Shown here: in pieces, positions 34,271-46,185 of the stretch | How the letters are laid out: each line of letters opens with the position of its first letter | How positions within the stretch are numbered: the first letter of the stretch is position 1 | Source: Sphaerotilus natans | Lineage (GTDB): Bacteria; Pseudomonadota; Gammaproteobacteria; Burkholderiales; Burkholderiaceae_C | Direction: 5' to 3' | Assembly: GCF_900156335.1 (NCBI RefSeq) | Contig: NZ_FTMZ01000009.1 | Location: 1 to 64,000, forward strand | Length of the DNA: 64,000 nucleotides | Notes under the pieces: generated by a model | Seen by the model: only the letters and a program-made list of their open reading frames with translations | Told to the model about the DNA's origin: nothing | Database searches by the model: none | Program-made: the position numbers and the translations under genes

Positions 34271-34312
34271 TCACGCCACGATCACGCCGGCGTCATGCCC
34301 GCGGCCGACACT
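34271..34312 (+). promoter_or_regulatory. Pho-box-like promoter before lplT
   Basis: TCAC (34271), TCAC (34282), TCAT (34293) with an 11-bp period, then 10 nt, then a -10-like GACACT (34307-34312). The start codon follows 7 nt later. The same composite layout stands before the phosphoesterase gene and the PAP2 operon. Confidence 0.55.
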
Positions 34313-34319
34313 CGGCCGG

Positions 34320-35534
34320 GTGACGACGTCGCTGCCCCTGCCCGCCGCCCTGCGCGGCTTCCGACTGCTGATGTCGGCCCAGTTCGTGTCCGGGCTGGCC
34401 GACAACGCGCTGCTGCTGGTGGCGATCGGCCGCCTCGCGGCCGAGGGCGGGCCGGTCTGGCTGCCGCCGCTGCTCAAGCTGGCGTTCACGCTGGCCTATG
34501 TGCTGCTGGCGCCCTTCGTCGGGCCGCTGGCCGACCGCGCGCCAAAGGCCACGGTGATGAGCGCGGCCAATGCGCTCAAGGCCGGCGCCTGCGCCGCGAT
34601 GGCGCTGGGCGCGCCGGTGGGGCCGTGCTTCGCGCTGGCCGGCGCGGGTGCGGCGCTGTATTCGCCCGCCAAGTACGGCCTGGTGACCGAGCTGATGCCC
34701 GCGCACCGGCTGGTCGCCGCCAACGGCTGGATCGAGGTGGCCACCGTGCTCGCCATCCTGCTGGGCACGATGCTGGGCGGCGCGCTGCTGGCCTGGCTGG
34801 CGCCCGCCATCGCCTTCGCCGGCCTGCTGGCGCTCTACGGCCTGGCAGCGCTGCTGAATCTGGGCATTCCCGACAGCGGCGCGCGCTATCCGGCCGCGCC
34901 GCCACTGGCCTGCCAGCTCGGCGACTTCGCGCGCGCCAATGCGCGGCTGTGGCGTGATCCGCTCGGGCGCGTCTCGCTGGCCACCACCACGCTGTTCTGG
35001 GGCGTCGGCGCCACGCTGCAGTTCCTGGTGCTGCGCTGGGCGGAGGAAGACCTCGGCCTGACGCTGGCGCAGGCCGCCTGGCTGCAGGGCCTGTCGGCCA
35101 CCGGCGTGGTGATCGGCGCGCTGCTGGCCGGGCGGCTGGTGCCGCTGGCGCGTGCGCCGCAGGTGCTGTGGCTGGGCGTGCCGATGGGCCTGCTGCTGCT
35201 GCCGATGCCGCACATCGACCACTGGCTGCCGGCGCTGCCGCTGCTGGCCAGCGCCGGTCTGGTCGCCGGGCTGTTCGTCGTGCCGATGAACGCGCTGCTG
35301 CAGCACCGCGGCGCCACGCTGCTCAGCGCCGGCCGCTCGATCGCAGTGCAGAACTTCAACGAGAACGCCAGCGTGCTGCTGATGCTGGCCGGCTACGCCT
35401 GGTGCAGCCGGCAGGACCTGCCGCTCGATCTGCTGATCCGCGGCTTCGGTCTGGGCATCGCGCTGCTGATGGCGCTGATCGCGCTGCATCACCACTGCCT
35501 TCGCCACCGCCTTCGCCACAAGGAGATCGCCTGA
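34320..35534 (+). CDS. lplT: lysophospholipid transporter LplT
   Basis: 404 residues, 12 predicted helices, MFS fold. The sequence aligns with E. coli LplT: MSAQFVSGLADNALLLVA, the GAGAALYSPAKYGLVTELMP loop, and FFVVPMNALLQ-type motif (LFVVPMNALLQHRG). LplT flips lysophospholipids across the inner membrane for re-acylation. The start is a GTG at 34320, which gives the same N-terminal length as known LplT. No aas acyltransferase gene is adjacent. It overlaps the glycosyltransferase gene (TGATG) and is preceded by the repeat promoter. Confidence 0.88.
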   Translation: MTTSLPLPAALRGFRLLMSAQFVSGLADNALLLVAIGRLAAEGGPVWLPPLLKLAFTLAYVLLAPFVGPLADRAPKATVMSAANALKAGACAAMALGAPVGPCFALAGAGAALYSPAKYGLVTELMPAHRLVAANGWIEVATVLAILLGTMLGGALLAWLAPAIAFAGLLALYGLAALLNLGIPDSGARYPAAPPLACQLGDFARANARLWRDPLGRVSLATTTLFWGVGATLQFLVLRWAEEDLGLTLAQAAWLQGLSATGVVIGALLAGRLVPLARAPQVLWLGVPMGLLLLPMPHIDHWLPALPLLASAGLVAGLFVVPMNALLQHRGATLLSAGRSIAVQNFNENASVLLMLAGYAWCSRQDLPLDLLIRGFGLGIALLMALIALHHHCLRHRLRHKEIA

Positions 35535-36571
35535 TGAGGATCGTCATCGTCACCGACGCCTGGGAGCCGCAGGTCAACGGCGTGGTGCGCACGCTGAAGA
35601 TGACCACGCACGAGCTCGGCCTGCTCGGCCACGAGGTGCACATCGTCTCGCCGCAGGGCTGGCCGAGCCTGCCCTGCCCGACCTATCCGGACATCCGCCT
35701 CGCCGCGGTGACGCCGCGCGGCATGGCGCGCCGGCTCGACGCGCTGCAGCCCGACTGCCTGCACATCGCCACCGAGGGCCCGCTGGGCTGGGCGGCACGC
35801 GCGGTGGCACGCCGGCGCGGCTGGCCCTTCACCACCGCCTATCACAGCCGCTTTCCCGAATACCTGCAGCTGCGCACCGGCATCCCGGTGAACTGGAGCC
35901 ACGCGCTGCTGCGCCGCTTCCACAACAGCGGCGTGGCCACGCTGGTGCCCACGCCGCACATGGGCGAGGAGCTGCGCCGCCACGGCTACCGGCATCCGGT
36001 GCACTGGAGCCGCGGCGTCAACCTGGAGATGTTCAGCCCGCACGGGCCGGTGCTGGCGCGCCCGGCCGGCCGCGGCCCGGTCTTCCTGTACGTGGGCCGG
36101 CTGGCGGTCGAGAAGAACATCGACGCCTTCCTGCGGCTGGCGCTGCCGGGCGAGAAATGGGTCGCCGGCGCCGGGCCGGAGGCCGCGCGGCTGCGCCGCA
36201 CCTACGGCGACGCGGTGCGCTGGTTCGACGTGCTCTCCGGCCCGGACCTGGCGCAGCTCTACCGCAGCGCCGACGTGATGGTCTTCCCGAGCGAGACCGA
36301 CACCTTCGGCCTGGTGCTGATCGAGTCGATGGCCTGCGGCACGCCGGTGGCGGCGCTGCCGGCGACCGGCCCGATCGACGTGGTCGGCCCCAGCGGCGAG
36401 GGCGGCGTGATCGACACCGACCTGAAGGCAGCCTGCCTGGCCGCGCTGCGCTGCGACCGCACGCGGGTGCGGGCCTTCGCCGAGCGCTACACCTGGGCGG
36501 CGGCGACACGCCAGTTCGAGCAGGCGCTGCGACCGATCCCGCGGCCGGCCGCGCTGCTCGCGGCGACCTGA
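35534..36571 (+). CDS. GT4 glycosyltransferase, probable diacylglycerol glycosyltransferase
   Basis: 345 residues, GT-B fold of family GT4. The N-terminus VTDAWEPQVNGVVRTL and the C-terminal donor site FPSETDTFGLVLIESMACGTPV (about 255-276) are typical of the MgtA/Agt group that puts glucose, glucuronic acid or mannose on diacylglycerol. In phosphate-starved bacteria this enzyme works with the phospholipase PlcP to replace phospholipids by glycolipids, and a PlcP-like gene lies 28 nt downstream on the other strand. It is translationally coupled to lplT. The sugar donor is unknown. Confidence 0.82.
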   Translation: MRIVIVTDAWEPQVNGVVRTLKMTTHELGLLGHEVHIVSPQGWPSLPCPTYPDIRLAAVTPRGMARRLDALQPDCLHIATEGPLGWAARAVARRRGWPFTTAYHSRFPEYLQLRTGIPVNWSHALLRRFHNSGVATLVPTPHMGEELRRHGYRHPVHWSRGVNLEMFSPHGPVLARPAGRGPVFLYVGRLAVEKNIDAFLRLALPGEKWVAGAGPEAARLRRTYGDAVRWFDVLSGPDLAQLYRSADVMVFPSETDTFGLVLIESMACGTPVAALPATGPIDVVGPSGEGGVIDTDLKAACLAALRCDRTRVRAFAERYTWAAATRQFEQALRPIPRPAALLAAT

Positions 36572-36599
36572 GCCCGGGCGAAGCCGGAGCCGTGCCGGC

Positions 36600-37442
36600 T
36601 CAGGCCGGCTGCGGCAGCGCCGCCATCGGCGCACGACGGGCACGCTGGCGCATCACCGCGGCCCAGTCGATGATCTCGAGCCGGCCGTCGGCATGCTCGA
36701 CCAGCGCGGTCAGGCTCTCGACCCAGTCGCCGTCGTTGGCATAGGTCAGGCCGTCGACCACGCGCAGCTCGGCATGGTGGATGTGGCCGCAGACCACGCC
36801 GTCGACGCCACGCCGGCGCGCCTCGCGGATCACCGCCAGCTCGAAGTCGTTGATGAAGCTGACCGCGCGCTTGACCTTGAGCTTCAGGTAGCGCGAGAGC
36901 GACCAGTAGGGCAGGCCAAGACGCGCACGCGCCGAGTTCAGCATCCGGTTGAGTCGCAGCGCCAGCTGGTAGAGACCGTCGCCGACATGCGCCAGCCAGC
37001 GCGCGCACTGGATCACGCCGTCGAACAGGTCGCCGTGCATCACCCAGAGCCGGCGGCCGTCGGCGGTCTGGTGGATGCAGTCCTCCACCACCTCGATGCC
37101 GCCGAAGGCGTGGCCGGCGTAGCGGCGCGCGAACTCGTCATGGTTGCCCGGCACGAAGATCACCCGGGTGCCCTTGCGCGCCTTGCGCAGCACCTTCTGC
37201 ACCACGTCGTTGTGCGCCTGCGGCCAGAACCAGCGCCGCCGCAGCTGCCAGCCGTCGACGATGTCGCCGACCAGATACAGCGTCTCGCACTCGACCGCGC
37301 GCAGGAAGTCGAGCAGCGCCTCGGCCTGGCAGCCGGACGTGCCCAGGTGCACGTCGGAGATGAACACGGTGCGGACCGACAGCGTCTCCGGCGGGAAGGC
37401 ACTGTCCGGCGCCGCGGCGGCGGGGGCGGTGATGGCGTTCAT
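36600..37442 (-). CDS. PlcP/LpxH-like metallophosphoesterase
   Basis: 280 residues with the calcineurin-type metal motifs: Asp30-x-His32, GDIVDGW at 59-65, GNHDE at 99-103, a later HGD and GHIHHAE. General annotation is UDP-2,3-diacylglucosamine diphosphatase. The full-length pattern (WPQAHNDVVQKVLRKARKGTR, GLPYWSLSRYLKLKVKRAVSFI) is that of PlcP, the phospholipase C-like enzyme that releases diacylglycerol from phospholipids during phosphate limitation. Its convergence with the GT4 gene and the Pho-box-like promoter favour PlcP. I call the product PlcP-like by inference. Confidence 0.85.
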   Translation of the reverse strand: MNAITAPAAAAPDSAFPPETLSVRTVFISDVHLGTSGCQAEALLDFLRAVECETLYLVGDIVDGWQLRRRWFWPQAHNDVVQKVLRKARKGTRVIFVPGNHDEFARRYAGHAFGGIEVVEDCIHQTADGRRLWVMHGDLFDGVIQCARWLAHVGDGLYQLALRLNRMLNSARARLGLPYWSLSRYLKLKVKRAVSFINDFELAVIREARRRGVDGVVCGHIHHAELRVVDGLTYANDGDWVESLTALVEHADGRLEIIDWAAVMRQRARRAPMAALPQPA

Positions 37443-37448
37443 GGAGCC

Positions 37449-37490
37449 ATCGTCGGCACCCGGGATGACCGCCCGGTGAAGCGCGGGTGA
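37449..37490 (-). promoter_or_regulatory. Pho-box-like promoter before the PlcP-like gene
   Basis: On the minus strand: TCAC (37490-37487), TCAC (37479-37476), TCAT (37468-37465), period 11 bp; then 10 nt and a -10-like GACGAT (37454-37449). The ATG follows 6 nt later. The first repeat is CTGTCAC, a full Pho-box half. Confidence 0.6.
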
Positions 37491-37590
37491 CAGCGGCACG
37501 ACGCGGTATCGGCACGACAAGCCCCTGTCATCGAGCCCCCGGACACTGGCAGGCAGGACGCACGACGCCCACCCGAAGGAGCCCTCCGCG

Positions 37591-38127
37591 ATGATGCCGA
37601 ACCCCGCCGACACCCCTGACGCCGACGATCTGCGCGCCGCACGCCTGCTGCAGCAGGCCCTGGCCCGTCCAGGCGAGATTCTCGAGATCGAGCCCTCCGG
37701 CCCGCCACAGCCTGCCCGGCCCTTCGTGCGCCAGGGCACCGGCCGGCTGTCGCCGGCGATGAAGACGGTGCTGCAGGCCCTGTCCGGTCATGCCGCGCCG
37801 CTGCGGCTGGCGCTGACCACCGCCGCCGAGGTCGACCCGGCGGTGTGGCGGACGCCGGCCGGCACGCCGGCGATGCTGCTGATCGAGGTGCCGGCGCTGC
37901 GCGATGGCCGCGGCGCCGAGCGCGCCCGCGACGACGAGGACCCGGACCTCACGCCCTGCCTGTGCATCGACGGCACCCGTCACCTCAGCGTGGCCGGCAT
38001 CGCGCGCCATTTCTGGCGGCGTCGGCCCGAGGCCGATCCGGCCGACCCGGGCGTCGATCTGGTGCTGTGCAGCGATCGCCGGCTGGTGGCGATCGGCCGG
38101 CAGTCGCGGGTCTGGCTCTGCAGCTGA
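37591..38127 (+). CDS. hypothetical protein
   Basis: 178 residues; GAAGGAG stands 10 nt before the ATG at 37591. No signal peptide or membrane segment. Two parts are visible: a proline-rich N-terminal half (to about 55) and a C-terminal half with VLQALSGHAAPLRLALTTAAEVD and a short DPDLTPCLCIDGTRHLSVAGIARHFW segment. It lies divergent to the PlcP-like gene, with 148 nt between them. I do not recognise a family. Confidence 0.6.
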   Translation: MMPNPADTPDADDLRAARLLQQALARPGEILEIEPSGPPQPARPFVRQGTGRLSPAMKTVLQALSGHAAPLRLALTTAAEVDPAVWRTPAGTPAMLLIEVPALRDGRGAERARDDEDPDLTPCLCIDGTRHLSVAGIARHFWRRRPEADPADPGVDLVLCSDRRLVAIGRQSRVWLCS

Positions 38128-38136
38128 GGCCGCGGC

Positions 38137-39171
38137 TCAGGCCGCCGCGGCCAGCGCCAGCCGCAGCGAGGCGCCGCGTGCATTCCAGCCCTCGAGCCAT
38201 CGCACGAAGCCGGCCAGGCCCTCGGCCAGCGGCGTGGCCCGCCACGGACCGATCGCCTCGATCAGCCGCGACGGATCGGCGCTGGTGTCGGGCACGTCGC
38301 CGGCCTGCATCGGCGCGAACTCGATGTGCGCCGGGCAGCCGGTGGCGCGCTCGAGCAGCCGCACGAAGTCGATCACCCGCACCGGCTGGCGGTGGCCGAT
38401 GTTGAACAGCTCGGCCGGCACGCCGTCCTCGCGCTGCCGGCCGGCCGGCGCGCCGCGCGCGACCAGCCGCAGCAGCGCGTCCACCACGTCGTCGACATGG
38501 GTGAAGTCGCGGCGCAGCTCGCCCTGGCCGTAGAGCTGCAGCGTCTCGCCGCGGCGCAGCCGCTCGGCGAAGCCCCAGTAGGCCATGTCCGGCCGACCCC
38601 ACGGCCCGTAGACGGTGAAGAAGCGCAGGCCGGTGACCGGCAGGCGGTGCACCGCGGCGGTGGCGTGCGCCATCGCCTCGTTGGCCTGCTTGGTCGCGGC
38701 GTAGAAGGAGGCCGGCGCGTCGATGCGATCGCTCTCGCGGAAACCACCCGGCGCGGCATCGCCGTCGCGCCGGCCGTAGACGCTCGACGAGCTGGCATAG
38801 AGCAGATGGCCCACGCCCTGCAGCCGGCAGGCCTCCAGCACCGAGGCAAAGCCGAGCAGATTGGCCTGCACATAGTCGAGCGGCGCGCTGACCGAGTGGC
38901 GCACGCCCGCCTGCGCGGCCAGGTGCAGCACGGTGTCGATGCGGTGCAGGCGCATCAGCGCCTGCAGCGCGGCGCCGTCGCACAGGTCCAGCCGCTCGAC
39001 CGGCACGCCGGCGGGCTGCAGCAGCGCCGCGACCCGTGCGTGCTTGAGCTCGACCGGGTAGTAGGCGTTGAAGCTGTCGCAGCCGACGACGCGGTGGCCG
39101 GCTTGCGCCAGCGCCGCGGCGGCATGCGCGCCGATGAAGCCGGCCGCGCCGGTGACGAGGATCTGGGCCAT
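38137..39171 (-). CDS. NAD-dependent epimerase, UDP-glucuronate 4-epimerase type
   Basis: 344 residues of the extended SDR family. GAAGFIG at 8-14 binds NAD, SSSSVYG is the serine region and YAATK the catalytic Tyr/Lys pair. The NAYYPVELKHARVAALL segment and DFTHVDDVVDALLR are characteristic of CapI-type UDP-glucuronate/galacturonate 4-epimerases. It could provide the sugar nucleotide for the neighbouring glycosyltransferases. The start at 39171 (MAQILVTG) fits the fold; longer extensions do not. Confidence 0.85.
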   Translation of the reverse strand: MAQILVTGAAGFIGAHAAAALAQAGHRVVGCDSFNAYYPVELKHARVAALLQPAGVPVERLDLCDGAALQALMRLHRIDTVLHLAAQAGVRHSVSAPLDYVQANLLGFASVLEACRLQGVGHLLYASSSSVYGRRDGDAAPGGFRESDRIDAPASFYAATKQANEAMAHATAAVHRLPVTGLRFFTVYGPWGRPDMAYWGFAERLRRGETLQLYGQGELRRDFTHVDDVVDALLRLVARGAPAGRQREDGVPAELFNIGHRQPVRVIDFVRLLERATGCPAHIEFAPMQAGDVPDTSADPSRLIEAIGPWRATPLAEGLAGFVRWLEGWNARGASLRLALAAAA

Positions 39172-39241
39172 GGTGCCCCGGATGCTGGCGCGACGGCATG
39201 ACGGTACCGTGTCGTGCGCGTGGCGTCGCCGCGAGGCCACG

Positions 39242-39294
39242 TCACCGGGTTTTCACGGACGCTTCAAGGCCGCGTCATGCGATCCCGCCACGAT
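39242..39294 (+). promoter_or_regulatory. Pho-box-like promoter of the PAP2/glycosyltransferase operon
   Basis: Four repeats with an 11-bp period: TCAC (39242), TCAC (39253), TCAA (39264), TCAT (39275). Ten nt after the last one comes a -10-like CACGAT (39289-39294), and the ATG of the first gene follows 9 nt later. The layout equals that before lplT and the PlcP-like gene. Confidence 0.6.
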
Positions 39295-39303
39295 GACGGC
39301 GCC

Positions 39304-40131
39304 ATGAATGCCCTCACCACGCTGCTGACCTCGCCGCCGCAGGCCCGCACCGAACACCGCCCGCTGCGCATCGCCCCGAGACCGATGCGCTGGCTCGCGG
39401 CCGCCGGCCTGCTGCTGATCGTCGGCCTGATGCTGCACCAGCACGACCTGACGCTGTTCCTCGCGCTCAATGCGCTGGGTCTGCATCTGCCGGAGCTGTG
39501 GGCGATGCTCAGCGTCGCCGGACTGGGCCTGAGCGCCTTCATCGTGCTGGCGGCGCTGCATCCGGGCGCGGCGCCGACGGCGATGCAGCCGCTGGCGGCG
39601 CTGCTGTGGTGCTTTCCGATCGGTGGCGCGCTGACGCATCTGGGCAAGCGCCTGATCGATCACGGCCGGCCCGCGGCGCTGCTGCCGCCCGACACGCTGG
39701 TCATCATCGGCGAGCCGCTGACACGCGGCGCGATGCCCTCCGGCCATGCCGCGACGACGCTGGCCTTCGTCGCGCTGCTGATCCTGTCGCGCCACCGGCC
39801 GGTCTGGCAGCAGGCGCTGATCACGCTGATCGCGCTGCCGCTGCTGCTGGCGCGCATCGCGGTCGGGGCGCACTGGCCGGCCGATCTGTGCGCCGGTGCC
39901 GGCGTCGGCCTGGTCAGCGCGCTGCTGGCCTGGCATCTGGCCAGCAGCGGCCGCCTGGCCGCCTGGCTGTGCAGCACGCCGGGCCAGTGGGCGCTCGGGC
40001 TGCTGCAGATCGGCTGCGGCCTGGCCATCGCGCGGCTCGAGACCGGCTACCCGCTGGCGCTGCCGCTGCAGGCGCTGCTGGCGGTCGTGTCGATCGCCAC
40101 GGGGCTGCAGCGGCTGGGCGCACGACGATGA
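39304..40131 (+). CDS. PAP2-family membrane phosphatase (first of the operon)
   Basis: 275 residues with about six helices. The three PAP2 motifs are complete: Lys115-x6-Arg122-Pro123, PSGH with His148, and Arg184-x5-His190-x3-Asp194. Such enzymes remove phosphate from lipids (phosphatidic acid, undecaprenyl diphosphate, or lipid A as LpxE/LpxF do) on the periplasmic side. The ATG at 39304 is 9 nt from the predicted -10. First gene of a six-gene coupled operon. Confidence 0.85.
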   Translation: MNALTTLLTSPPQARTEHRPLRIAPRPMRWLAAAGLLLIVGLMLHQHDLTLFLALNALGLHLPELWAMLSVAGLGLSAFIVLAALHPGAAPTAMQPLAALLWCFPIGGALTHLGKRLIDHGRPAALLPPDTLVIIGEPLTRGAMPSGHAATTLAFVALLILSRHRPVWQQALITLIALPLLLARIAVGAHWPADLCAGAGVGLVSALLAWHLASSGRLAAWLCSTPGQWALGLLQIGCGLAIARLETGYPLALPLQALLAVVSIATGLQRLGARR

Positions 40132-40991
40132 GCCCGGCCGAGACGATCGACACGCTGCTGCTGCGGGCCGGCCTGCTGCCGGCCGCGGCCTGGAGCGGCG
40201 CGGCCGCCGCCCTGCTGGCGAGCTATCTGCTGCGGGCCGCACGGCTGCAGGCCGAGTGGCAGCCGCGCACCGGCGCGAGCCTGCGCGACTGCCTGCGTCT
40301 GTTCCTGCTGCACAACATCGCCGTCGTCTGGCTGCCGATGCGCAGCGGCGAGGCCGGCTATCCGCTGTGGCTGCAGCGGCGCTGGCAGGTGCCGCTGCAG
40401 GAATCCCTGCCCAGCCTGCTGTGGCTGCGGCTGCAGGACGCGCTGGTGCTGGCGCTGCTGGGCGCGCTGGCCCTGGCGCTGACGACGCTCGCCGCCCTGC
40501 CGGCGCTGGCCGCGCTGGGCGTGGGTGCCGCACTGATGCTGGCGCTGGCCGGCCCGGTGGAGCAGGCGCTGGAGCGACAGCTGCGGCGCCGGCCGCAGCC
40601 CGCGGCCGAGACACGCTGGAGCCGCTGGCACGCGGCGCTGCGGGCGCGGCGCGGCGGGCGCCGGGCCTGGCGGCTGTGCATCGGCAACTGGGCGATCAAG
40701 CTGGCGACGCTGGCCCTGCTGCTCGAGGCGCTGGGCGGCGCGGGCACAGGCGGCAGCGCCGCCGCGCTGCGCGGCGTGCTGGCCGGTGAATGGGCCGGCG
40801 TGCTGCCGCTGCAGGCGCCGGGCGGCCTGGGCAGCTACGAGGCCGCGGTCTGGGCCGGCGCCGGCGCGCCGCAGCCGGCCGCGCTGGCGCTGGGCGCGGT
40901 GCTGCAGCTGCACGCGCTGTCGCTGGCGCTGGCCACGCTCGGCGGCGCGCTCGCCGCCATCGACACAGGAATGACAGGATCGACGACATGA
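40128..40991 (+). CDS. flippase-like membrane protein (UPF0104/LPG-synthase TM type)
   Basis: 287 residues, very Leu/Ala-rich, about seven helices. The pattern LFLLHNIAVVWLPMRSGEAGYPLWLQR near residues 58-84 and PLQAPGGLGSYEAAVWAG near 226-243 match the lysylphosphatidylglycerol synthase TM-region/flippase-like family (UPF0104). These proteins are found with polyprenyl-phosphate glycosyltransferases, perhaps to move the lipid-linked sugar. It overlaps the PAP2 gene before and the GT2 gene after by 4 nt each. Confidence 0.75.
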   Translation: MSPAETIDTLLLRAGLLPAAAWSGAAAALLASYLLRAARLQAEWQPRTGASLRDCLRLFLLHNIAVVWLPMRSGEAGYPLWLQRRWQVPLQESLPSLLWLRLQDALVLALLGALALALTTLAALPALAALGVGAALMLALAGPVEQALERQLRRRPQPAAETRWSRWHAALRARRGGRRAWRLCIGNWAIKLATLALLLEALGGAGTGGSAAALRGVLAGEWAGVLPLQAPGGLGSYEAAVWAGAGAPQPAALALGAVLQLHALSLALATLGGALAAIDTGMTGSTT

Positions 40992-42121
40992 CTGCGGCAG
41001 ACGCGACGACGGCATGGCAGCCGCAGGCCCAGGCGGACAGGCAACGGGGGTCCGGTGACAAGGCGTGGAGTGGCGCCATGGGGGTCACCGGGGTGAAAGT
41101 GGCGGCGGCAGGCGCAAGCCTGCCGTCGCCGGCACACCTGTCCCTGCCGGCGCACCATCTGTCGATCGTCGTGCCGATGTACAACGAGGTCGACAACGCC
41201 GCGGCGCTGATCGACGCGGTGCGCACCGCGCTGGCGGCCTACCCGCAGCCCTGGGAGCTGATCGTCGTCGACGACGGCAGCCGCGATGCCACCGCCGCGG
41301 CGCTGCGCCGCCACGCCCGCGCCACCGGCGCGCCGGTGCGGGTGATCTCGCTGGCGCGCAACTTCCGCCAGACCGCCGCGATGCAGGCCGGCATCGACGC
41401 CGCGCAGGGCGACGTCATCGTGACGATGGACGGCGACCTGCAGAACGACCCGCGCGACATCCCGCGCCTGGTGCAGCGCCTGCTGGCTGAGGATCTGGAC
41501 ATCGTCGCGGGCTGGCGGGTGCAGCGCCAGGACGGCTTCTGGCTGCGCCGCCTGCCGTCCCAGCTGGCCAACCGGCTGATCCGGCGCATCACCGGGCTGC
41601 CCTTTCACGATCTGGGCTGCAGCCTGAAGGCCTTCCGCGCCAGCGTGCTGCGCGAGGTGCGGCTCTACGGCGAGATGCACCGCTTCATCCCGGCCTGGCT
41701 GTCGACGGTGACCTCGCCGGCGCGCATGGCCGAGGAGCCGGTCGACCACCACCCGCGCCTGCACGGCACGTCGAAATACGGCCTGTCGCGCACGCTGCGG
41801 GTGCTGGTGGACCTGCTGGCGGTCACCTTCTTCCAGCGCTTCGCGGCGCGGCCCGGGCATTTCTTCGGCGTGATCGGGCTGGCGGTGCTGGGCGCCGGCC
41901 TGGCGATGCTGGCCTATCTGGGCGGACTGAAGCTGCTGCTGGGCGAGGACATCGGCGGGCGGCCGCTGCTGTCGCTGGGCTTCTTCTGCTGCATCGGCGG
42001 GCTGCAGTTCCTGACCACCGGCGTGCTGGCCGAGCTGCTGATCCGCATCTACTACGGCGCGCGCCACGGCCAGCCCTACGTGGTGCGCCAGGACGACGGC
42101 CGCGATGCACCGCACGCCTGA
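40988..42121 (+). CDS. GT2 polyprenyl-phosphate glycosyltransferase (GtrB/DPM1-like)
   Basis: 377 residues. After a low-complexity N-terminus of about 55 residues comes a GT-A domain with LSIVVPMYNE, DDGSRDAT and the metal-binding TMDGDLQNDP, and two C-terminal membrane helices (about 290-355). This is the architecture of DPM1/GtrB/ArnC enzymes that make polyprenyl-phosphate sugars on the cytoplasmic face as donors for GT-C transferases, two of which follow. Starts inside the previous stop (ATGA). Confidence 0.88.
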   Translation: MTAADATTAWQPQAQADRQRGSGDKAWSGAMGVTGVKVAAAGASLPSPAHLSLPAHHLSIVVPMYNEVDNAAALIDAVRTALAAYPQPWELIVVDDGSRDATAAALRRHARATGAPVRVISLARNFRQTAAMQAGIDAAQGDVIVTMDGDLQNDPRDIPRLVQRLLAEDLDIVAGWRVQRQDGFWLRRLPSQLANRLIRRITGLPFHDLGCSLKAFRASVLREVRLYGEMHRFIPAWLSTVTSPARMAEEPVDHHPRLHGTSKYGLSRTLRVLVDLLAVTFFQRFAARPGHFFGVIGLAVLGAGLAMLAYLGGLKLLLGEDIGGRPLLSLGFFCCIGGLQFLTTGVLAELLIRIYYGARHGQPYVVRQDDGRDAPHA

Positions 42122-43766
42122 ACCGCTGGCGCCGCGCTGGCTCGTCTGGGCGCTGCTGCTGCTCGGCGCGATGCTGCTGCGGCTGGGCGCCGCGCCGCTG
42201 CTCGACGTCGACGAGGGCGCCTTCGGCGAGGCCTCGCGCGAGATGCTCGCCGGCGGCGACTGGAGCCGCACCACGCTCAACGGCGAGCCGCGCTGGGACA
42301 AGCCGATCCTGATCTACTGGCTGCAGGCCGGCGCGATGGCGCTGCTGGGCCAGCAGGAGTTCGCGCTGCGCCTGCCCTCGGTGCTGGCGGCCTGGGGCTG
42401 GGTGCTGGCGACCGTGATGTTCGCGCGGCCGCGCTGGGGCGATGCGGCGGCGCTGGGCGCCGGCGCGGTGCTGGCCAGCGGGCTGGGCGTGGCGCTGATC
42501 GGGCGCGCCGCCACCGCCGATGCGCTGCTCAACCTGTGGCTGGCGCTGGCCGGGCTGGACCTGTGGCGCCATCTGGAGGCCGCGCCCGGCAGCGCCGCGG
42601 CGCGTCAGGCGCTGCGCCGCACTGCGCTGTGGATCGGCCTGGGCCTGCTGACCAAGGGGCCGATCGCGCTGATCGTGCCGGGCGCGGCCGCGCTGGTCTT
42701 CGTCGCCCTGCACCGCGGCCCGGTGCCGACCGGCACGCGGCTGCGCGGCCTGCTGGGTGACGGGGCGGCCTGGGCGCTGATGCTGGCGGTGGCCCTGCCC
42801 TGGTATGCGCTGATGCTCGTCCAGCATGGCCAGGCCTTCATCGACGGCTTCCTGGTGCGGCACAACCTGTCGCGCTACCAGGGCACGCTCGAAGGCCACG
42901 GCGGCAGCCTCGGCTACTACCTGCTGGTGCTGCCGCTGCTGATGCTGCCGTGGGCGCCGCTGCTGGTGCAGCTGCTGCGCCGCGCGCGCGCGCTGTGGCG
43001 CGAGCCGCTGGCGGGCTATCTGCTGGGCTGGGCCGGCTTCGTGATCGTCTTCTTCAGCCTGTCGGGCACGAAGCTGCCGCACTACGCGCTGTACGGCCTG
43101 ACGCCGCTGGCGCTGCTGACCGGGCGGCTGCTGGCCGCCGAGGCACCGGGCGAGGCGCTGCCCGGCGCGCTGCTGCGGCTGCAGCAGGCGCTGCTGATGC
43201 TGCTGGCGCCGCTGCTGGCCGGCGCCACGCTGGCGCTGCAGGCGCGCGCCGAGCACATCGCCGACCCGCTGTACCGCACCCTGCTGGCCGCGCCGACGCC
43301 AGAGCCCGGCCCGCTGGCGGCCGGCGCGCTGCTGGCGGCAGCCGCGGCCGCGCTGTGCCTGACCGGCGCCCGCGGCCGCCTGAGCGAGACCGCCCGGCTG
43401 AGCGCCGCTGCGCTGTGCGGCCTGCTGTGGATTCACGGCCAGCTCTCGCCCTGGTGGAGCGAGCGCCTGCAGGGGCCGGTGCGCGACCTGGCCCGGCAGG
43501 CCCAGCTGCAGCCGGGCGCGCCCGCGGCCGTGCAGTGGGGCCTGCATCTGCCCAGCTTTGCCTTTCATCTGGACCGGCAAGCCCCGCGGCGCGCGCCCCG
43601 CCCAGGCGAGCTGGCGCTGGTGCGCGCCGACCAGCTGGCGCGACTGACCGAGGAAGCCGGTCTGGCCGCGCCGGTGCGGCTGGCCGAACGCAACGGTCTG
43701 GTGCTGGTGCTGGTGCTGGTGCTGGTGCAGGTGCGGATGCCGACCGAAGGCGACGCGCCGCGATGA
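42105..43766 (+). CDS. ArnT-like GT-C glycosyltransferase (first copy)
   Basis: 553 residues with about 12 helices. The first periplasmic loop has the catalytic DVDEGAF motif (34-40), followed by EPRWDKPILIYW, both typical of ArnT, which adds aminoarabinose to lipid A phosphates from undecaprenyl phosphate. No arn genes for that sugar are present, so another sugar is likely. It overlaps the GT2 gene by 17 nt. The C-terminus carries a Val-Leu repeat from a hexanucleotide array. Confidence 0.85.
   Translation: MHRTPEPLAPRWLVWALLLLGAMLLRLGAAPLLDVDEGAFGEASREMLAGGDWSRTTLNGEPRWDKPILIYWLQAGAMALLGQQEFALRLPSVLAAWGWVLATVMFARPRWGDAAALGAGAVLASGLGVALIGRAATADALLNLWLALAGLDLWRHLEAAPGSAAARQALRRTALWIGLGLLTKGPIALIVPGAAALVFVALHRGPVPTGTRLRGLLGDGAAWALMLAVALPWYALMLVQHGQAFIDGFLVRHNLSRYQGTLEGHGGSLGYYLLVLPLLMLPWAPLLVQLLRRARALWREPLAGYLLGWAGFVIVFFSLSGTKLPHYALYGLTPLALLTGRLLAAEAPGEALPGALLRLQQALLMLLAPLLAGATLALQARAEHIADPLYRTLLAAPTPEPGPLAAGALLAAAAAALCLTGARGRLSETARLSAAALCGLLWIHGQLSPWWSERLQGPVRDLARQAQLQPGAPAAVQWGLHLPSFAFHLDRQAPRRAPRPGELALVRADQLARLTEEAGLAAPVRLAERNGLVLVLVLVLVQVRMPTEGDAPR
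43701..43724 (+). repeat. hexanucleotide microsatellite in the GT-C gene
   Basis: Four perfect GTGCTG units plus degenerate copies on both sides, coding alternating Val-Leu at the C-terminus of the transferase. Changes in copy number stay in frame. Confidence 0.75.
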
Positions 43767-45349
43767 GCACGCGCCTGCTGCTGCGTCTGCTGGGCTTCGG
43801 CGCGCTGGCCCTGCTGCTGCGGCTGGCCTTGCTGGCCGGCGTGCTCGACGACCCCACGATCGGCCTGCAGGTGGACGAGGCGCAGTACTGGGGCTGGTCG
43901 CGCGAGCTGGCCTGGGGCTACTACTCGAAGCCGCCCGGCATCGCCGCGCTGATCGCCGCCTCCACCGCGATCGGTGGGGACGGGGTGATCGGCGTGCGCT
44001 GGCTGGCGATGGCGGTGCAGGTCGCCGCCGGTGTCGCACTCGGCCTGCTGGCGCATGACCTGGCGCAGGCCGCCTGGCCCGAGCAGGCCGACCGCGCCCG
44101 GCGCGCCGCCGTCTGGGCGACGCTGATCGCGCTGAGCAATCCGGTCGCCGGGCTGCTCGGGCTGGCGGCGACCACCGACGCGCCGCTGCTGCTGTGCTGG
44201 ACGCTGGCGGCGCGGGCGCTGTGGCGGCTGCGCCGCTCGGGCCGTCTCGCCGACGGCCGGGGGCTCGGGCTGTGGCTGGGCCTGGGGCTGCTGTCGAAAT
44301 ACACGATGGCGGCGCTGCTGCCCGGTCTGCTGGGGTGGCTGTGGCGGCGCCGCCATGACGGTGGGCCGGATCCCCGGCCCGCGCTGGCCCTGGCCTGCGC
44401 GCTGGCCGCGCTGCTGCTGCTGCCGCATCTGCTCTGGAATGCCCAGGCCGGCTGGCCGACGCTGCACCACACCGCCGAGATCACGGTGCAGGCCGGCCCG
44501 CCCGGCGCGCGCACCGCGCTGGCCATGCTGGGCTCGCTGGCCGGCTGGCTGGGCGGCCAGTGGCTGATGAGCGGGCCGCTGTGGCTGCCGCTGTGGCTGC
44601 GCTGGCGGCGGCGCCTGCCCGCCGGTGCCGCGCTGCCACCGGCGGTGCGCGAGCTGCTGCTGGCGCTGACCGTGCCGCTGCTGCTCATCGGCGCGGCCCA
44701 GGCGCTGAACGCCAAGGCGCAGATCAACTGGACCGCCCCGGCCATGCAGGGCCTGGTGCTGGCGCTGGCGCTGTGGCTGGCGCCGGCGGGGCGGCGGCCG
44801 CTGCGCCGGGCCGCCGGCGTCGTCGTCGCGCTGCACCTGCTGCTGGTCAGCACGCTGCCGCTGATCGGTGGCGCGACGCGCTGGATCCACGGCGAAGGCG
44901 CCGTGCCGCCGCGCTCGCTCGACCTGTGGGCGCGCATGCGCGGCTGGGAGCCGGCGCTGCAGGCCCTGGCCCCGGCCGCGCGCGACCCGCTGGCCGCCGG
45001 CGCGGTGCTGATCGGCGCCGACCGCACGCTGATCTCGCACGGCCGCCATGCCTGGCGCGATCTGCCCGGCGCCGACTGGCATGCCTGGCGGCCGGACCGC
45101 CGGCGCCCGCCAGCCGATCACTACCAGCTGGTGGCCGGCTGGCCGGGCACCGCCTCGGCCGCCGATCGCCAGCGCCCGCTGCTGATCGTCAGTCACGGCG
45201 AGACGCTGCCACCCGACTGGCTGGCGTGGCTGGAGCCGCCGGTGCGGCTGGCCGGCAGCCGCACCGCGCAGGGCGCCGAGCGCACGCTGGTGCTGACGCT
45301 GTGGCGGACGCGGCTGCGCGACACCCCTGCCCCGACGGAGCCCCGATGA
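43763..45349 (+). CDS. ArnT-like GT-C glycosyltransferase (second copy)
   Basis: 528 residues, about 11-12 helices, different from the first copy. The catalytic loop is QVDEAQYWGWS (36-46) followed by YYSKPPGIAALIA, closer to the GT39/GT83 dolichyl-phosphate-mannose-type proteins found with PAP2 phosphatases. Two GT-C enzymes after one GT2 suggest two acceptor positions or two sugars. It starts inside the stop of the first copy and ends in the start of the next gene. Confidence 0.85.
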   Translation: MSTRLLLRLLGFGALALLLRLALLAGVLDDPTIGLQVDEAQYWGWSRELAWGYYSKPPGIAALIAASTAIGGDGVIGVRWLAMAVQVAAGVALGLLAHDLAQAAWPEQADRARRAAVWATLIALSNPVAGLLGLAATTDAPLLLCWTLAARALWRLRRSGRLADGRGLGLWLGLGLLSKYTMAALLPGLLGWLWRRRHDGGPDPRPALALACALAALLLLPHLLWNAQAGWPTLHHTAEITVQAGPPGARTALAMLGSLAGWLGGQWLMSGPLWLPLWLRWRRRLPAGAALPPAVRELLLALTVPLLLIGAAQALNAKAQINWTAPAMQGLVLALALWLAPAGRRPLRRAAGVVVALHLLLVSTLPLIGGATRWIHGEGAVPPRSLDLWARMRGWEPALQALAPAARDPLAAGAVLIGADRTLISHGRHAWRDLPGADWHAWRPDRRRPPADHYQLVAGWPGTASAADRQRPLLIVSHGETLPPDWLAWLEPPVRLAGSRTAQGAERTLVLTLWRTRLRDTPAPTEPR

Positions 45350-46062
45350 TGAACCCGCGCTGGCGTCTGGCCTGGCTGCGCTGGCTGGCGGTGACCGCCG
45401 CCACGCTGCTGCTGTTCAACCTCTTCCCGCAGATCGATCTGGCGGTCAGCGCCGCGCTGCACGATGCGGCCGCCGCCGGACTGGAGCGCTTTCCGCTCGG
45501 GCAGGCGGCGCCGGTGCAGGCGCTCTATCACGCGGTGCCGTGGCTGGGCCGGCTGGCCCTGATCCTCGCCCTGGTGCTGGTGCTGCGCCGGGACACGCCG
45601 CCGCGGCCGCGCCGCCAGGCCACGGCCGTGCTGCTGATGCTGGTGCTGGGGCTGTGGCTGACGGTCAACGTCGGCCTGAAGGACCAGTGGGGCCGACCGC
45701 GTCCGGTGGAGATCTCGGCCTTCGGCGGCCTGCACGACTTCATGCCCGCCGGACAGCCGGGTGGCGGCTGCGAGCGCAACTGCTCCTTCGTCAGCGGCCA
45801 TGCGGCCACCGGCTTCGCGCTGGCAGCCGTCGGCCTGCTGGGCACGCCGGCGCGGCGTCGACGCTGGCAGCAGGCCGGCCTGGCCGCCGGGCTGCTCATC
45901 GGTGCGGGCCGCGTGCTGCAGGGCGGGCATTTCACCAGCGACATCGTCTGCGCCGGGCTGGCGATGCATCTGTGCGCGCTGCTGATCCGGCAAGGCTGGG
46001 TGCTGTGGCGCCGGTACCGTGCAGACCAGCATCGACACCGCACGGCCCAGATCGCCAAATGA
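45346..46062 (+). CDS. PAP2-family membrane phosphatase (last of the operon)
   Basis: 238 residues, about five helices. PAP2 motifs: Lys112-x4-Arg117-x-Arg119-Pro, SGH with His152, and Arg189-x5-His195-x3-Asp199. The large loop FMPAGQPGGGCERNCSFVSGHAATGF is typical of lipid A phosphatases of LpxE type and their relatives. It ends the coupled operon. Being the second PAP2 enzyme in the operon, it may act on a different phosphate from the first. Confidence 0.85.
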   Translation: MMNPRWRLAWLRWLAVTAATLLLFNLFPQIDLAVSAALHDAAAAGLERFPLGQAAPVQALYHAVPWLGRLALILALVLVLRRDTPPRPRRQATAVLLMLVLGLWLTVNVGLKDQWGRPRPVEISAFGGLHDFMPAGQPGGGCERNCSFVSGHAATGFALAAVGLLGTPARRRRWQQAGLAAGLLIGAGRVLQGGHFTSDIVCAGLAMHLCALLIRQGWVLWRRYRADQHRHRTAQIAK

Positions 46063-46185
46063 AATCGCGTGAAACAAGAGCGAACAAGCACGAGGGCCGG
46101 CACTGCGGCTACCATCGCGCCCCCCGGTGACAACCGGACGACATCCGTCTAAAACAACGAATTCCTTCACGCTCGAGGAATGCCC

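Follow-up and report, generated by a model that had tools for sequence, protein, structure and literature searches.

The stretch of DNA analysed here, called the window below, comprises 64,000 nucleotides of Sphaerotilus natans (contig NZ_FTMZ01000009.1, positions 1 to 64,000), and it holds an island of envelope-lipid genes whose lplT, plcP and pap2 transcription units are each preceded by a predicted Pho-type operator/promoter. The lplT site (34271..34312, + strand) consists of three units, TCAC at 34271, TCAC at 34282 and TCAT at 34293, then 10 nt and the -10-like hexamer GACACT (34307-34312), and the GTG start codon stands at 34320, 7 nt past the hexamer. The plcP site (37449..37490, - strand) reads TCAC at 37490, TCAC at 37479 and TCAT at 37468, then 10 nt and GACGAT (37454-37449), with the ATG at 37442 following after 6 nt. 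Four units form the pap2 site (39242..39294, + strand), TCAC at 39242, TCAC at 39253, TCAA at 39264 and TCAT at 39275; they are followed by 10 nt, CACGAT (39289-39294) and, 9 nt further, the ATG at 39304. All three sites lie between predicted genes, keep a period of exactly 11 bp and end with TCAT, and their hexamers have the form NANNNT at 10 nt past the last unit, the same 10 nt as found de novo in pstS promoters. TCA(C/T) occurs in nine of the ten units while the leading TG is mostly absent; the first unit of the plcP site is TGTCAC, and there is one full CTGTCAC among the ten. An earlier note on this DNA had described an identical layout at the three sites and one repeat reading CTGTCAC. 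Every letter and distance was re-checked and proved exact.

The gene at 34320..35534 (+) codes for an LplT-like lysophospholipid transporter of the MFS type (NCBIfam NF008397, 445.7 bits with a cut-off of 297). Its stop codon has a one-base overlap with the ATG of a GT4 glycosyltransferase gene (35534..36571, +; Pfam Glyco_transf_4 and Glycos_transf_1), which is called Agt-like from its GT4 family and context only. Homologues of this glycosyltransferase (42-50% identical) stand directly behind plcP in 16 of the 80 loci of relatives described below. The plcP gene itself (36600..37442, -) codes for a PlcP-like metallophosphoesterase (Metallophos). Could it be LpxH? The protein has 41.5 bits against LpxH and weak matches to LpxH structures, versus 165.8 bits for a better candidate at C38:101733 in the same genome, itself below the cut-off of 190, and on this comparison LpxH was rejected as the identity of plcP. 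Judged by its sequence, the product is a calcineurin-type phosphoesterase distinct from LpxH; it is called PlcP-like, and its phospholipase C activity is predicted. The third unit is headed by a gene for a PAP2 phosphatase (39304..40131, +; Pfam PAP2).

Are such repeats found elsewhere in the genome, and what do they precede? The genome holding the window (4.63 Mb, 57 contigs) was scanned with simple letter patterns. TCAY-N7-TCAY-N7-TCAY has 13 matches, four of which overlap within one tandem array, and the pattern read backwards has none. TCAY-N7-TCAY-N10-NANNNT has 19 matches versus 1 for the reversed pattern. When the gap between the units was varied from 2 to 12, the gap of 7 took 19 of the 87 matches, while the other ten gaps took 3-13 with a mean of 6.8 (Poisson p 9e-5). 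Two of the 19 matches are the lplT and plcP sites; the pap2 site escapes the pattern through its third unit, TCAA. Among the 17 matches outside the window, eight precede genes of phosphate metabolism, namely pstS, a PhoB-family regulator, two phoX, ppk, and genes for a 5'-nucleotidase, a phytase-like protein and a glycerophosphodiesterase (GDPD). For example, pstS is preceded by TCAC-N7-TCAC-N10-TAGCAT and the regulator gene by TCAC-N7-TCAT-N10-TACAGT. The binomial probability of eight phosphate targets in 17 is about 1.5e-12, given a background that was assumed, not counted, of 40 phosphate genes among 4,200. Four more of the 17 are ambiguous and precede genes for a histidine phosphatase (SixA-like), a choice-of-anchor lipoprotein, a nuclease-like protein and a fasciclin protein; the nuclease-like gene is without a Pfam match, and its name, like the names rpsG and rpsJ below, was assigned by reading. 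The fasciclin-domain gene is divergent from pstS and has its own Pho-like site (L045 1456-1486, -; TCAT-N7-TCAC-N10-GACACT), with a -10 identical to that of lplT. As a separate observation, six TCAC units form an exact 11-bp tandem array (L006 1501-1559, C23:344256-344314) between an acyl-CoA-ligase-like gene, so named by reading, and a convergent gene, with no obvious Pho target.

To keep the test from being circular, a motif was also built from other genomes of the family alone. Matches were found in 53 of 60 genomes and 30 loci were fetched; with the genome's own pstS removed, the 250 bases upstream of pstS in the 29 others served as input. The de novo search of these upstreams returned TGTCACgnnnnTGTCAcA, then TA ten bases past the second unit. 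With three units plus the -10, a scoring chosen after the two-unit result had been seen but following from the three units in the earlier note, the plcP, lplT and pap2 sites score 23.2, 18.4 and 17.0 and take ranks 1, 2 and 3 of 127,914 window positions; in 40 Markov windows serving as the null, the top score has a mean of 5.6 and a 95% point of 9.6. Rank 4 is the pap2 site displaced by one unit. Rank 5 (14.3) is a likely fourth Pho-like site which the earlier note did not contain, ACAC-N7-TCAT-N10-CAGCAT at 39182..39212 (-), with the ATG of an epimerase gene 10 nt past the hexamer. When two units plus the -10 are scored, this epimerase site is at rank 2 with 13.2, the only one of the four to pass, by a narrow margin, the null 95% point of 13.1.

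Is the element kept in relatives? The best 80 of 574 plcP loci in public genomes were compared, almost all of them with a Burkholderiales or Betaproteobacteria label, and 79 had an upstream sequence; because these loci are related, the counts are not independent. The strict 31-base pattern is present in 20 of the 79 plcP upstreams and in none of the reversed sequences, and two TCA(C/T/A) units are present in 45 versus 2 reversed. With a pstS-derived score of at least 12 as threshold, 36 of the 79 plcP upstreams are positive (reversed 0, complementary strand 3), as are 6 of 11 lplT upstreams (reversed 0, complementary strand 1). The nearest named relative among the matches listed is the plcP of Caldimonas manganoxidans (79%). 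A match to pap2 was found in 57 of 250 family genomes. The same-genus genome G058 retains the island with its lplT, pap2 and epimerase sites: TCAC-N7-TCAC-N10-GACACT before lplT, with the same hexamer as in the window, four units before pap2, with TCAA third as in the window, and ACAC-N7-TCAC-N10-GAGGAT before the epimerase gene, directly 3' of which lies plcP. G177, which has lplT and GT4 in one stretch, scores at lplT and pap2. In Ideonella benzenivorans the order is plcP, ppk, a gene for a histidine phosphatase (SixA-like), a PstS-like gene, pap2, flippase, GT2 and PMT, and there are Pho-type sites at plcP and ppk. In the same-genus genome G248 no match to pap2 was found.

A number of results weigh against reading these repeats as Pho boxes, and they concern the scans, the hexamers and the relatives alike. 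Taken as two-unit boxes, the window sites are weak beside that of pstS. The two-unit pstS matrix in its 31-bp form puts the window sites at ranks 6-171 of 127,940, within the null range (6, 9, 11, 14, 21, 34, 73, 165 and 171, under or near the null), and the 22-bp form at ranks 12-396, with the epimerase site at 68 and 151, again within the null range. With two units plus the -10, lplT, plcP and pap2 take ranks 5, 6 and 8 and fall short of the 95% point of the null, and the list is topped by a position with no evident target, 46143 on the - strand (13.6). Even in the three-unit scan, the untargeted positions 488 - (12.6), 46154 - (11.9) and 462 + (10.3) take ranks 6, 7 and 9, above 9.6, and therefore the Markov null is somewhat lenient. 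The -10 hexamers of the window are poor and begin with GA or CA, while TA opens each of the 29 pstS hexamers in the placement given by the motif. Five of the 19 genome matches look like chance (L049, L054, L059, L061 and L065, including neighbours of rpsG, rpsJ and ZrgA). Among relatives, 43 of 79 plcP and 5 of 11 lplT upstreams are below the threshold, epimerase upstreams reach it in one of the three distinct loci examined, and pap2 upstreams in just 4 of 29 distinct loci (5 of 32 before removal of rows L178-L180, which duplicate L149-L151). By letter pattern, three of the 29 other pap2 loci match, one of them (L155) outside the narrower stretch used for scoring. The same-genus genome G170 has the pap2 operon without the site; plcP, lplT and GT4 were not found within the 20-kb stretch read there. 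From the rarity before pap2 it follows that Pho control of the pap2 operon, if real, is lineage-specific. Finally, the genome has two PhoB-family regulators above the family cut-off (C12:325267 and C47:37745), one behind the pst genes and the other located elsewhere with its own Pho-type site upstream, and either could be the acting one.

Two of the untargeted places deserve description in their own right. The one at 46111-46143 (-) reads TGTCGT-N5-TGTCAC, then 10 nt and GATGGT, and would read back into the last part of the second PAP2 gene. The window begins within a 16S rRNA gene (1-208, -), upstream of which (451-499) there are TGTCAC-type words with period 11 on both strands, with a four-unit score of 13.9 at 451 +.

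Could short TCA words simply resemble one another by chance in intergenic DNA that is rich in GC? Each site is weak when taken alone, the two-unit scans do not rise above the null, and some untargeted places pass the three-unit null; set against these points are the three-unit ranks 1-3, the low count for the reversed pattern in the genome and the complete lack of positives in the 79 reversed plcP upstreams. Chance was rejected on the two comparisons of genome counts with the backward patterns and on the three-unit ranks, and we give it hardly any probability. The earlier note had held the agreement of the sites to be hard to explain by chance, and the reversed pattern and the Markov null bear it out. 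It had also reasoned that its proposal would fall if pst and phoBR lacked similar sites or if shuffled sequence had the pattern as often; pstS and a PhoB-family gene carry such sites, and the controls, reversed sequence for the 19 matches and Markov windows for three units, came out in favour. The identity of the repeats as Pho boxes is well supported. The sites and their spacing, their co-occurrence at phosphate genes, their conservation and the gene families are observations; PhoB binding and induction are what we infer, and all enzyme activities and substrates given here are predictions.

Another explanation is that the repeats bind a different OmpR-family regulator of envelope stress, of PmrA or ColR type, which also controls lipid A modification. 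The content of the island (PAP2, ArnC-like and ArnT-like proteins) is like that of PmrA/ColR targets, and on the same contig (C35:74-79 kb) an OmpR-type regulator and a histidine kinase are divergent from genes for an EptA-like phosphoethanolamine transferase and a PAP2 protein; this locus (L047 10162-14752) lies about 28 kb beyond the last gene of the island. Yet the 400 bases scanned around its divergent promoter contain no period-11 TCAN pair, while pstS, phoB, phoX and ppk have it. For this absence the PmrA/ColR explanation was rejected and is considered very improbable; note that only its gene content makes the locus PmrAB-type, and that the rejection rests on one promoter region. The proposal of the earlier note, one activator of the OmpR/PhoB class, gains support from the same element at phosphate genes and from its conservation at plcP and lplT. 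We hold Pho control of lplT, plcP and pap2 to be highly probable on the sequence evidence, slightly less so in view of the untargeted positions above the three-unit null, a judgement that concerns the control and leaves the enzymology outside.

What would the pap2 operon do under such control? Behind the PAP2 phosphatase gene follow genes for a flippase-like membrane protein (40128..40991, +; LPG_synthase_TM, PF03706, 63.2 bits), an ArnC-like GT2 polyprenyl-phosphate glycosyltransferase (40988..42121, +; ArnC structures 8vxh and 9bhc at E about 1e-45, NF007986 at 182.9 bits, below the cut-off of 529), a PMT/ArnT-like glycosyltransferase (42105..43766, +; PMT, with ArnT 5ezm as the sole solved match at E<=1, E 1.4e-19), a second PMT-family glycosyltransferase (43763..45349, +; PMT_2, 61.4 bits) and, last of the run, a second PAP2-family protein (45349..46062, +; Pfam PAP2, 66.9 bits) with a homologue at the same place in G058 (62%). 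The first PAP2 protein has LpxE (6ebu) as its best solved-structure sequence match, a weak one with E 1.1e-5; its structure model is poor (mean pLDDT 48.9) and was set aside. The likely fourth site stands before a gene divergent from this operon (38137..39171, -) whose product is, by matches to sequences of solved structures, like UDP-glucuronate 4-epimerases. Its FTVYGPWGRPDMA stretch aligns to 6zl6 and MoeE5 (6kv9) and the RPDMA stretch is conserved; 6zl6 and MoeE5, which we take to be UDP-glucuronate 4-epimerases, outscore every GalE among the 60 best matches, and the top match, 5u4q, is labelled a dehydratase. From these families we infer that lipid A would be modified with a uronic acid and phosphate thereby spared, both acceptor and sugar being predicted.

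The boxes may well be Pho boxes and the acceptor still not lipid A. The PAP2/GT2/PMT operon could serve, for example, undecaprenyl-diphosphate recycling together with polysaccharide or protein glycosylation, which is compatible with Pho control and changes the target only. PMT-fold enzymes have many acceptors, the PAP2 protein is nearest to undecaprenyl-diphosphatases in NCBIfam, though weakly and far below the cut-off, and undecaprenyl diphosphate is also a substrate of LpxE enzymes (PMC6581854). On the other side, LpxE and ArnT, the latter an enzyme of lipid A, give the best structure matches, and the epimerase suggests a uronic acid, but neither fixes the acceptor. We give a target other than lipid A about an even chance.

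Between plcP and the epimerase gene a further gene stands alone (37591..38127, +). Its short product resembles PhnH in a stretch at the C-terminus (PhnH 30.2 bits, Pfam cut-off 25; TIGR03292 29.1, below the cut-off of 91.5) and may be a remnant of a phosphonate enzyme or have a new role. A doubtful fifth site, likewise absent from the earlier note, ACAA-N7-TCAT-N10-GACACT (37517..37547, +), ends 43 nt before it and is not above chance in the window scans, with a two-unit score of 12.9 versus 13.1 and a three-unit score of 9.4 versus 9.6 at the 95% points of the null.

There is a further feature of these promoters, the closeness of the start codons. Transcription generally begins about 7 nt after the -10, and mRNAs with start codons 6-10 nt past it would have little or no leader. 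The first in-frame start is 6-10 nt past the -10 in 22 of 37 plcP relatives with a scoring site versus 3 of 30 pstS treated in the same way (Fisher p 3e-5, which is optimistic because the loci are related). The start codon lies 7 or 8 nt past the -10 in 19 of the 37 (L069-L131); some codons taken as starts among the 37 are simply the earliest possible and perhaps not the true ones. These distances hint at leaderless mRNAs at these promoters. Leaderless mRNAs are reported to require AUG (PMC3616915), and for this reason the GTG start of lplT is the weak point of a leaderless reading. The recurrence of close starts in the plcP relatives makes leaderless translation in phosphate stress testable.

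Pho control would give the following scenario. Phosphorylated PhoB would bind the tandem 11-bp half-sites, three or four here, the last of which, 10 nt upstream of the -10, would stand in for the -35 element. Phosphate shortage would then switch on lplT-GT4, plcP and the PAP2/flippase/GT2/PMT operon; the epimerase gene would probably respond as well. PlcP would remove the head groups from phospholipids, the GT4 enzyme would add a sugar to the diacylglycerol left behind, and LplT would bring lysophospholipids back to the inner leaflet. UDP-galacturonate supplied by the epimerase would serve the PAP2 operon in modifying lipid A or a different glycan of the envelope. All this suggests that the membrane, and perhaps the outer surface, is rebuilt with sugars instead of phosphate when phosphate is scarce. 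The most specific form is a joint PhoB switch on two fronts, with glycosyl-diacylglycerols made by PlcP and GT4 while LplT recycles lysolipids, with lipid A phosphates removed by the LpxE-like PAP2 and replaced by galacturonic acid that the epimerase makes, GT2 loads and the PMT enzymes transfer, and with leaderless mRNAs starting at the start codon; in this complete form we think it rather unlikely. If Pho control of LplT and of the lipid-A-type operon is right, the saving of phosphate would extend from the phospholipids to the surface of the outer membrane, the surface charge would change too, and the mass of lipid A should vary with phosphate supply.

How do the sites and genes compare with known systems? 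PHO boxes are tandem 11-nt repeats with seven conserved positions and a variable number of units (PMC4415409); the core resembles CTGTCAT in E. coli and is GTTCACC in Streptomyces, whose DNA is high in GC. An overlap of PhoB boxes with the -35 region is described in PMC3616915. The window sites share with them the 11-nt direct repeats and the last unit in the -35 place, and differ in their three or four GC-rich degenerate units, their poor -10 and a start codon 6-10 nt past it. The plcP-agt arrangement with Pho boxes has been described in marine bacteria (PMC4796936, whose main text does not contain the word betaproteobacteria), so Pho control of plcP and agt, with the swap of phospholipid for sugar lipid in phosphate shortage, is already known. 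Our island resembles its type 2 in having plcP with a Pho box and an agt-like glycosyltransferase gene nearby; unlike it, plcP and GT4 are convergent here, GT4 overlaps lplT, and the epimerase gene and the lipid-A-type operon carry similar sites. Pho-box control of ornithine-lipid genes has been predicted in Burkholderia (PMC7814305), again a predicted case of Burkholderiales making lipids free of phosphorus under Pho control, but with another lipid, made there by the OlsB pathway, and other genes. Compared with the LpxE, ArnC and ArnT systems of lipid A modification, the window proteins are sequence relatives of the solved structures, weakly so for LpxE, and differ in that their operon has Pho-type sites. 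Among the best matches in the open-access literature, no paper placing lplT or an ArnC/ArnT-type operon under Pho control was found. What the window would add to the known systems, as predicted from its sequence, is an LplT gene and a lipid-A-type operon under Pho-type sites, along with start codons close to the -10 and a likely site before the epimerase gene.

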